Part shown: in pieces, positions 56,186 to 59,016 of the stretch
Layout of the letters: every line of letters begins with the position of its first letter
Numbering within the stretch: position 1 is the stretch's first letter
NCBI RefSeq assembly: GCF_038049925.1
Contig: NZ_CP145809.1
Span: 2,824,599 to 2,888,598 of the forward strand
DNA length: 64,000 nucleotides
DNA from: Georgenia sp. M64
Lineage (GTDB): Bacteria; Actinomycetota; Actinomycetes; Actinomycetales; Actinomycetaceae
Reading direction: 5' to 3'
Program-made: the position numbers and the translations under genes
Notes under the pieces: model-generated
Seen by the model: the letters and a program-made list of their open reading frames with translations, nothing else
Told to the model about the DNA's origin: nothing
Databases searched by the model: none

Positions 56186-57061
56186 GGCGCTCCCCCCTTC
56201 TCGCGACGGACGGGACGGGACGCTGCGGTCGGGCGGCCAACCGGCTCAGAACTCATAGTCATCCATGTTCTCCTTGTTGAAGACCATGGCCGGCCCGAGG
56301 AAGAGCTCACCGGTGGACTCGTCGTAGATCACTGGGTCGTCGATGCCGGGGACGGTGTTCTCGGCCTGGAACTCACGGCCCTCGACGAGCTCGTTCATCG
56401 CCCACACGGTCAGCGCGCCGAGGTCGAGCATGTTCCACAGCACCGTCGAGTACACGGTCCCACTCTCAAGGAACTTACGCGCCGTGAGCGGGCTCGTTGC
56501 GGCAACGACCTGCACCTCACCGGACTTGCCGGATGTCTCGACGGCCTGGGCGACCCCGGGCAGGGCACTAGACGGGATGGACAGCACGCCGGCGAGGTCA
56601 GGAAACGCCGTCAGGACATCCTGTGTCTCCTTCAGGGCGGTCGCGGTGTCAGCGGTGTACCGGACGCCGCCGACCATCTCCAGGCCCGGGTACGTCTCGG
56701 CGGCATAGGCATGGATTGCGTCGATCCAGCCGTTCATATTCGGCGAGTCCGGCGCGCCGGAGACGATGGCGTACTCCCCCTCCTCGCTCCCGATCGCCTC
56801 CACGAGCTGGTCGACGAGGGCCTTGCCGACCTCATCGAAGCTCGCCGGCTGCACCATGACCTGCCGCTCGCTGTCCGGCGCGTCGCTGTCGGACGTAATG
56901 ACGACGAGCCCCTTCTCGCGTGCGGCCGAGATGGCGGGGTCGAGGGACCGGGGGTCAAGCGCCGAAACCGAGACGGCGTCGTAGCCCTGCTGCACAAAAC
57001 TCTCGAAGATGCGCAGTTGCTCTGTCGCGTCGACCGTCGCCGGCCCACCCTGCGTGTAAGT

Positions 57062-57290
57062 CCTTCTGCTCCCTGGCGTGAGCGCCCTGGCGGGCTGAGA
57101 ATGGTGCTCCGGTCGCCCGTTGACGTCGTCATCCCATGGCCCCTTGAGACCGTGTGTAAGTCGGGCGCGGGGGCTGTGCTGTGGGCCCTTCACTGTCGCT
57201 TCGAGCACGAGGACTAGTTTCCTTCTCCCCTTCAGCTCCCACGGGCGACCGGTTCAGCACGGGTACTGGGAGCCTGGGGAGGTGGCGGCA
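57062..57290 (+). ncRNA. Putative bridge RNA region of the IS110 element
   Basis: IS110 elements encode in this position a structured bridge RNA with a target-binding loop followed by a donor-binding loop. Here GTGTAAGT (57154-57161) equals the left target flank plus AGT (57054-57061). TCACT (57190-57194) is complementary to the right side AGTGA (58598-58602). GGGC (57163-57166) and GCCC (57185-57188) can pair between them. Downstream, GGACTAGT (57211-57218) equals the element's right end plus AGT (58593-58600). A right-donor guide is less clear (GGGTACT, 57261-57267, one mismatch). RNA boundaries are unknown. Confidence 0.65.
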
Positions 57291-58553
57291 ATGGAGATCG
57301 CGGCCGATGAGGACGAGATCATCGAACGAGTCGCGGCGCTCGATATCGGCAAGGCCGAAGTGGTGTGCTGCGTGCGGGTACCAGCCCCGGGTCGGCGCCG
57401 CAGGCAAGAGGTGCGCCGGTACTCCACCATGACCGAGCAGCTGCTCGCGCTGGGCGACTGGCTGACTGAGGTCGGCGTGACCCGGGTGGTGATGGAAGCG
57501 ACGTCGGACTACTGGAAGGCGCCGTTCTACCTGCTCGAGCAGACCGGGATGCAGACATGGCTGGTCAACGCCCGCGATGTCAAGCACCTGCCCGGGCGAC
57601 CCAAGACCGACAGGCTCGATGCGGTCTGGTTGTGCAAGGTCGCCGAACGCCAGATGCTGCGCCCCTCATTCGTCCCGCCGGTGGAGATCCGTCAGCTGCG
57701 TGATCTGACCCGATACCGGGTCGACCTAATCGAGGCACGCACCGCGGAGAAGCAACGCGCCGAGAAGCTCCTCGAGGACGCCCAGATCAAGGTCTCGGTC
57801 GTCGTCTCCGACCTCTTCGGAGTCTCCGGGCGGGCGATGATGGCCGCGCTGATCGCCGGCCAGCGCGACCCCGCCGTGCTCGCCGACCTCGCCCGCGGAC
57901 CGATGCGCCGCAAGACCGCTCAGCTCCAAGAGGCCCTGACCGGGCACTTCACCGACCACCACGCCTTCCTGCTGGCCAAGATGCTCCACCGGGTCCAGAC
58001 CATTGACGCCGACATCGCCGAGGTCGAGAAGAAGATCGCCGAACACCTGGCCCCGTTCGTCGGCGACACCCTCCAACGGCTGGACGAGATCCCCGGGATC
58101 GGGATCGCGGCCGCCTGCGCGCTCATCGCCGAGATTGGCCTGGACATGGCCAGGTTCCCCACCCCAGGACACCTTGTCTCCTGGGCGAAGTTCGCCCCCG
58201 GAGTCAACGTCTCCGCCGGGAAGATCGTTGGCACCACCAGAACCGGGCGCGGCAACCGATACCTCGCCCGGGTCCTCGGTGAGATCGCCGTCGCGGTCGG
58301 CCGCACCAAGACCTTCCTCGGTGCCCGCTACCGCCGACTGGCACGCCGAATAGGCAAGAAGAAGGCAATCGTCGCGATCGCAAGGTCGATCCTGGTGATC
58401 ATCTGGCACCTGCTCGCCGATCCAACCACCCGCTTCCGAGACCTCGGCGTCGACTATTACGACACCCACATCAACAACAACCGCCGCGTTCGCAGCCACG
58501 TCCGCGACCTTGAATCCCTCGGCTACAAAGTCACCCTCGAACCCGCCGCCTGA
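57291..58553 (+). CDS. IS110-family transposase/recombinase
   Basis: A 420-aa recombinase. The N-terminal RuvC-like DEDD domain shows ALDIGKAEVVCCV (first Asp, about residue 17), VVMEATSDYWK (Glu, about 67) and GRPKTDRLDAVWLCKVAE (Asp pair, about 105). The C-terminal Transposase_20 domain has LDEIPGIGIAAACALIAEIG and the catalytic serine in GVNVSAGKIVG (about residue 307). It appears intact. ATG 57291 follows GGGGAGG by 8 nt; the in-frame extension into the left end overlaps the putative bridge RNA and is rejected. Confidence 0.95.
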   Translation: MEIAADEDEIIERVAALDIGKAEVVCCVRVPAPGRRRRQEVRRYSTMTEQLLALGDWLTEVGVTRVVMEATSDYWKAPFYLLEQTGMQTWLVNARDVKHLPGRPKTDRLDAVWLCKVAERQMLRPSFVPPVEIRQLRDLTRYRVDLIEARTAEKQRAEKLLEDAQIKVSVVVSDLFGVSGRAMMAALIAGQRDPAVLADLARGPMRRKTAQLQEALTGHFTDHHAFLLAKMLHRVQTIDADIAEVEKKIAEHLAPFVGDTLQRLDEIPGIGIAAACALIAEIGLDMARFPTPGHLVSWAKFAPGVNVSAGKIVGTTRTGRGNRYLARVLGEIAVAVGRTKTFLGARYRRLARRIGKKKAIVAIARSILVIIWHLLADPTTRFRDLGVDYYDTHINNNRRVRSHVRDLESLGYKVTLEPAA

Positions 58554-59016
58554 ACCACCGGCTAGCCACCCGCGCGAAGTCACCACATTCTCGGACTAGT
58601 GATGCCCAAGCGGTCCGCCTCGGCAGAGGCCCCCTGATTGAAGGCGTCGAACACGGGGATGCCCTCAATCTGCGAGACGAAGGCGACCCGGACGTCGCTC
58701 TCGCCGCCGCCATCGCTCGCGCCCGGCGCCCCGGTCGGCTCCGCCGGTGTCGTCGGAGCGCAGGCGGCCAGACTGAGGGCCAGGAAGGCGGCCACAGGGA
58801 AAGCCGCGGTCCGCAAACGCGAGCGCCGGGACGTCGAGTTGGCTGCTCTGCGGAGGAAGTGGGTCGTTGACATGGTGGTCGTGCTCCTTTGCATCAACTG
58901 AACTAAATCAACTGGACGGTGTGCGGGGACATGCGGTGGTTTCAGGGGGCGATCGGTCACCCATGCTGGAACCTTGTCTCAGACGCGACCACCTGCGGCC
59001 ACGCAAAGCGAACTGG

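Follow-up and report, generated by a model that had tools for sequence, protein, structure and literature searches.

Putative guides at the left end of an IS110-family element of Georgenia sp. M64 track insertion sites across related actinobacterial elements and probably belong to a small RNA encoded there

The published excerpts on IS621 describe a bridge RNA in which the left target guide (LTG), which pairs with the bottom strand, lies 5′ and the right target guide (RTG), which pairs with the top strand, lies 3′ (PMC11208160). In excerpts of the seekRNA study, the match to the top strand lies 5′ of the match to the bottom strand in IS1111 elements, the IS110-type ISEc21 is the reverse, and the guide order was reversed between the four IS1111 members and the one IS110 member tested (PMC11187229).

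The element described here was found in a 64-kb window, which is the whole stretch of 64,000 nucleotides that was analysed. As in IS621 (the described parts of PMC11208160 and PMC11208158), its left end would give a non-coding RNA with two internal guide loops around a 2-nt core, the target loop precedes the donor loop, and the transposase is a DEDD enzyme with a serine, the catalytic columns of which align. It differs from IS621 in that the putative RTG is 5′ and the putative LTG 3′, that the core is AG instead of CT, and that the transposase has 420 aa compared to 328 in the solved IS621 chain. The top-strand match 5′ to the bottom-strand match is the arrangement given for the IS1111-type elements ISEc11, ISPa11 and ISKpn4, whereas in the same excerpts of PMC11187229 nearly all IS1111 elements have their non-coding region downstream of tnp, and their subterminal inverted repeats (sTIRs) are usually 11 to 13 bp; the window element has its non-coding region upstream of tnp, and the one subterminal repeat seen in it measures 7 bp. 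ISEc21 is similar in its upstream non-coding region and in having a target within another insertion sequence (of the IS3 family for ISEc21), but there the bottom-strand match comes first, 5′ of the top-strand match (PMC11187229, excerpts). IS4321/IS5075, which belong to the IS1111 group, are set beside the window element on the basis of a paper title. The available portions of PMC13174815, PMC12859917 and PMC13264000 contain nothing on guide order, and no description of an RTG-hairpin-LTG order in an element of IS110 layout was found in the open-licence PMC papers searched. The six diverse bridge RNAs of Extended Data Fig. 10c in PMC11208160, among them that of ISAar29, may include this order.

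The element proper is 1537 bp in length (57061 to 58597, forward strand), and the insertion adds 1539 bp including one AG core. The identity of the element rests on three identical copies, on free sites at IS256 ends in a genome of the same genus (G001), and on the frame restored at the window site. The core copies, to which no strand is assigned, are at 57059 to 57060 and 58598 to 58599. The initial annotation had noted AGT shared by both ends, and from the window element alone either AG or AGT is a possible core; judging from relatives, the right ends of which keep AG and then vary, the core is AG. The left target GTGTAAG (57054 to 57060, forward strand) is identical at all three copies, the right target is TGATG here (58600 to 58604, forward strand) and TGCGT at the other two copies, and the left donor GGACT (58593 to 58597, forward strand) is the right end of the element, immediately before AG. 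A short subterminal repeat, GAGAATG, was read by eye at 57097 to 57103 on the forward strand, with an inverted copy, CATTCTC, at 58586 to 58592. In several relatives the pair GAAAATC/GATTTTC is present at the same places instead, and so both element ends change together.

The insertion interrupts a reverse-strand gene for a sugar-ABC substrate-binding protein (56246 to 58873, start codon provisional), the 3′ part of which runs to 57060 and the 5′ part from 58600. The 3′ part matches Pfam Peripla_BP_4 at 9e-52, and the 83-aa 5′ part gave no Pfam match. When 57061 to 58599 was omitted, the gene became a single open frame, and a homologue in genome G183, compared by eye, was colinear across the junction.

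The other two copies lie at 1,645,518 to 1,647,053 and 1,648,434 to 1,649,969 in the same genome, in opposite orientation to each other (locus L116, G000:C1:1643000-1653500), where one IS256 element (413.7 bits, cut-off 150) has a copy in each of its inverted ends; IS3-type reading frames that scored 152.7 bits, just below the cut-off of 160, adjoin that IS256 element. An IS256 element of 98.6% identity over 1,380 bp in G001 is without an insertion at both ends, and the IS256-end site was present only in G001 among the 213 genomes searched. At each of the three copies the left flank is GTGTAAG and the right side reads AG-TG, which gives the common 9-mer GTGTAAG^TG. No unfilled GTGTAAGTG was found on either strand of the 4.18-Mb genome. 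The eight occurrences of GTGTAAGT in the genome are three flanks, three guides and two free sites, and the free sites continue with T and A, not G.

The transposase gene (57291 to 58553, forward strand) encodes 420 residues that match NCBIfam NF033542 with 257.7 bits (cut-off 140) as well as the Pfam families DEDD_Tnp_IS110 and Transposase_20. A phmmer alignment with ISCro4 covered the catalytic D, E, D, D and S columns and that with IS621 began after the first D of the set; the N-terminal parts of these alignments were weak (i-E-values of 0.15 and 78). The layout is that of the IS110 group, with 230 bp of non-coding DNA before the ATG at 57291 and 44 bp after the stop codon. As for long subterminal inverted repeats, the 25 longest of the 41 inverted repeats include no pair located at the ends of the element. 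The two IS1111-group traits named above, a downstream non-coding region and an sTIR of usual length, are absent. The RTG peak is 5′ of the LTG, which is not the order of IS621 and ISEc21 and is the order reported for IS1111 elements in the excerpts of PMC11187229. Because IS110 layout is combined with the IS1111 order in the target loop, we class the element as a variant of the bridge-RNA IS110 elements.

The initial annotation had proposed that the left end reads out the target and donor sites of the element, and every string that it named is present at the position it gave. In the 64-kb window, GTGTAAGT occurs only at 57054 and 57154, and GGACTAGT only at 57211 and 58593, apart from one copy at 1378 in reverse complement; the sequence also reads TCACT at 57190 and AGTGA at 58598. 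A random 8-mer of the window falls in the 229-bp left end in 0.93% of cases (581/62,343, about 1 in 107). Two such 8-mers in order are therefore unlikely by chance, and the comparative tests given below are far stronger.

Relatives were collected by one scan of genome contigs, which yielded 36 loci, 14 of them copies of one Kibdelosporangium philippinense element, and by plasmid and whole-genome searches that gave further elements with alignable left ends; homologue searches in other groups added little. In tests of the LTG, the three copies of the window element were counted as one element, as were the 14 Kibdelosporangium copies. Three relatives (L091, L094, L095) had no usable left junction for this test, and the flanks of two (L089, L135) were partly masked. 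No phage record matched the left end, a search of Rfam (E up to 1) gave no match, and a promoter and terminator scan found nothing.

The candidate LTG is GUGUAAG (57154 to 57160, forward strand), 7 nt including the core. In the test that the initial annotation had suggested, changes in this guide track changes in the left flank across relatives: over 26 elements, including that of the window, the guide agreed with its own left flank at 4.9 of 7 positions compared to 2.6 expected (z 9.7, 0 of 20,000 permutations), and an earlier test on 15 elements also gave 0 of 20,000. With 22 de-duplicated elements, z was 6.5 when anchored on hairpin 1 of the predicted RNA and 7.6 when anchored on hairpin 2 (both hairpins are described below). 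A hand-compiled list of 37 element/target pairs contained 24 that were perfect over 7 nt. Among the mismatches, 9 of 21 cells were wobble-compatible (p 0.004 relative to 2 in 12, and p 0.07 among transitions), so that wobble pairing is a possible rule for them. Elements with the same guides next to unrelated flanks would have argued against guiding, and what was found is that the three window copies and the 14 Kibdelosporangium copies keep guide-matching flanks, the left flank of the latter being GCGTTAG or GCATTAG, which is their own guide 7-mer or one mismatch from it.

The candidate left donor guide (LDG), GGACUAG (57211 to 57217, forward strand), equals the right end of the element. Its agreement with the right end gave z 8.6 over 23 de-duplicated elements, a value from which ancestry is not removed because guide and right end are inherited together. 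The 7-mer was identical to the right end in 22 of 24 elements with a right-end motif, the exceptions being L082 and L091, and no such motif was found in five further elements. Among nine more elements with a usable right end, seven were identical and two (L154, L163) were one base off; in L166 the right-end motif found did not match the guide. The LTG and the LDG of the initial annotation are both strongly supported by comparison. By symmetry, a right donor guide (RDG) would be expected on the 5′ strand of the donor loop (57186 to 57193, forward strand), which holds most of TCACT. An offset scan over the relatives gave no clear RDG peak (z up to 3.4 at several places), and 57186 to 57193 showed no clear pairing with the left end of the element.

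A conserved fold of the homologous left ends, which the initial annotation had suggested looking for, is supported. The RNAalifold consensus on 21 left ends contained 41 pairs, with 96.1% of cells paired compared to 37 to 49% in slid controls, an advantage to be expected in part since the structure was derived from the same alignment. Compensatory changes on both sides were found in 23 of the 41 pairs, whereas shuffled alignments had a mean of 10.8 and 0 of 500 shuffles reached 23. The predicted outer helix pairs 57108 to 57120 with 57241 to 57253 (compensatory change in 10 of 13 pairs). Inside it, 57124 to 57127 would pair with 57164 to 57167 (100% of cells paired, compensatory change in 2 of 4 pairs) as a stem, CGYC:GRCG, that closes the target loop, an internal loop with the RTG on its 5′ strand, the LTG on its 3′ strand and hairpin 1 (UGGCC/GACCG, 57137 to 57152) in between. 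The predicted donor-loop stem pairs 57169 to 57177 with 57232 to 57240 (compensatory change in 9 of 9 pairs), and in this second loop hairpin 2 (UGUCGC/GCACG, 57194 to 57209) is followed by the LDG; all of these elements are on the forward strand. A pairing of GGGC with GCCC that had been suggested from the single sequence corresponds to no helix of the consensus fold, in which GGCG at 57164 to 57167 pairs with CGTC at 57124 to 57127 instead. The window RNA folded alone was not better than its shuffles, 158 of 200 of which were at least as stable.

The most variable stretch of the predicted RNA is immediately 5′ of hairpin 1. Before the offset scan was run, it had been noticed by eye to complement the right flank in several elements, and it is here that the scans place the candidate RTG, GUCAUCCCA (57128 to 57136, forward strand). 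Over 30 elements it was the best of 150 offsets, with 2.90 of 5 Watson-Crick pairs to the right target compared to 1.77 expected (z 6.8, 0 of 50,000 permutations); after 7 of the 30 were dropped as similar to others, z was 6.3 (N 23, 0 of 100,000 permutations). An earlier column-wise scan of the right target against the aligned RNA had given scattered top cells (z up to 3.8 for strict complement and 4.3 with wobble); it was blurred by alignment gaps, and the scan was re-anchored on hairpin 1 after individual matches had been seen by eye. The match was 5 of 5 in one element (L093), 4 of 5 in ten (L081, L090, L097, L128, L132, L142, L153, L154, L157, L163) and 2 of 5 or fewer in another ten of the 30 (L004, L080, L084, L087, L095, L125, L141, L155, L159, L161). 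In the window element, C57130 to C57133 can pair with G58604 to G58601, no U faces the first base, and CA is found where CU would complement the core; the score is 4 of 5 at the window site and 1 of 5 at both IS256 sites. The 14 Kibdelosporangium copies have 13 distinct right flanks, which scored 1 to 3, with 2 or less at most of the sites, and have no common sequence. Taken at the level of the family, these comparisons indicate that the right target guide is complementary to the right flank and changes with it. Three elements (L088, L092, L142) have similar right guides, and their adjoining right flanks all start with ACA.

The initial annotation had taken TCACT (57190 to 57194) as the right target guide and had accordingly read the guides in the IS621 order of LTG, RTG and LDG. 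That a bridge RNA is used in this order, with the RTG 3′ of the LTG at 57154, is improbable. TCACT does complement AGTGA at the right junction, AGTG is present at all three copies, and with TCACT in its exact register (−2 relative to hairpin 2) z was 2.3, the highest of 55 offsets around hairpin 2 over the 30 elements. However, z at this register was 2.0 and no longer the highest after de-duplication to 23 elements, compared to 6.8 and 6.3 for the 5′ strand in the two samples; it was 0.9 with the first anchors, and the neighbouring offsets from −6 to −1 gave −1.4 to 1.2. In addition, elements that differ in their right flanks repeatedly carry the block of which TCACT is a part, as TTCACTG or a variant of it. 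Its signal is thus weak at most, and the right target guide signal is at 57128 to 57136, 5′ of the left one.

Slightly less probable again is that the transposase protein itself reads a favoured DNA site and that the left-end matches are relics, for example flanks copied by recombination between the left junction and the LTG. The left junction and the LTG do form a direct repeat, the stretch between them is tandemly duplicated in L068, and in 35 of 39 elements (three rows read by eye) the LTG and the left junction are followed by the same two bases, as such copying would leave them. On the other hand, relics would predict neither an RTG that is complementary, not identical, to the right flank and tracks it, nor a compensated fold around the guides, and guiding has been demonstrated directly in published studies of IS621 and of seekRNAs. 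That the matches arose by chance in a GC-rich left end is hardly credible: the figure of 1 in 107 for a random 8-mer and the unremarkable single-sequence fold would leave room for this, but the permutation tests on the LTG and RTG across relatives do not.

We therefore favour, with a probability of roughly 0.87, the reading that the left end encodes a bridge RNA (seekRNA) by which the 420-aa transposase chooses both of its DNA partners, and that the target loop of this RNA is swapped. The comparison of relatives establishes the positions of the candidate LTG, RTG and LDG, the AG core and the conserved fold, so that the initial proposal was borne out in part: bridge-RNA control of the window element is strongly supported, the observations are partly confirmed, and the interpretation placed on them is partly supported. 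The RNA would have two internal loops, one for the target and one for the donor. On the target side, the strand 5′ of a hairpin (RTG) would pair with the top strand to the right of the AG core, and the strand 3′ of that hairpin (LTG, 7 nt with the core counted) with the bottom strand to the left of the core; on the donor side, the LDG, which is the strand after the second hairpin, would pair with the right end of the element. From the published IS621 and seekRNA work, we infer that such an RNA is transcribed and bound by the transposase, and that it directs both the formation of a circle and the exchange of strands. Since the RTG signal is 5′ of that of the LTG, the alignments give the order RTG-hairpin-LTG. 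This is the reverse of the order in IS621 and ISEc21 and agrees with that of IS1111 seekRNAs; the layout of the element is that of IS110. The combination of IS110 layout and IS1111 order in one clade suggests that guide order is not tied to layout, a point of relevance to the origin of the IS110 and IS1111 groups, and the swapped target loop is a natural test of which loop features set the order of strand cleavage.

The two bases after the LTG (UC, 57161 to 57162, forward strand) are the same as those with which the element begins and may be handshake bases. Excerpts of PMC11208158 place the handshake bases of IS621 beside the guides that pair with the top strand, and the equivalent here could be on the bottom-strand side. 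The identity held for both bases in the 35 of 39 elements mentioned above and for the first base in 38 of 39, with left junctions placed by eye and the three rows read by eye being L128, L161 and L167; it would also be expected from shared ancestry or from a left junction copied into the guide. On a protein tree, each of the two first-base traits changed four times; in the two cases in which a pair of changes could be placed on supported branches, the direction was the same, and two cases are too few for significance. It is a tentative suggestion that in this actinobacterial IS110 clade both loops of the bridge RNA are circularly permuted relative to IS621 (RTG-hairpin-LTG and RDG-hairpin-LDG), with the post-LTG bases as a bottom-strand handshake; strand exchange would then begin with the opposite strand to that used first in IS621.

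The duplicated Kibdelosporangium left end in L068 (around 2180 to 2310) extends in tandem from the left junction to the LTG. The direct repeat of guide and target may recombine or slip there, or may have served as a target, with an assembly error as the alternative. The Georgenia genome also contains a diverged (72%) and apparently decayed relative, L004 (G000:C1:3609510-3610988), with guides of its own: an LTG of GTGTTAG next to a flank of GTATTAG, and an LDG of GGGTTAG that is the same as its right end, GGGTTAG. Three of the Kibdelosporangium insertions (L069, L071, L079) lie within a palindromic repeat (GTGAGTGGTTA... / ...TAACCACTCAC), which is possibly a REP-like repeat used as a target.
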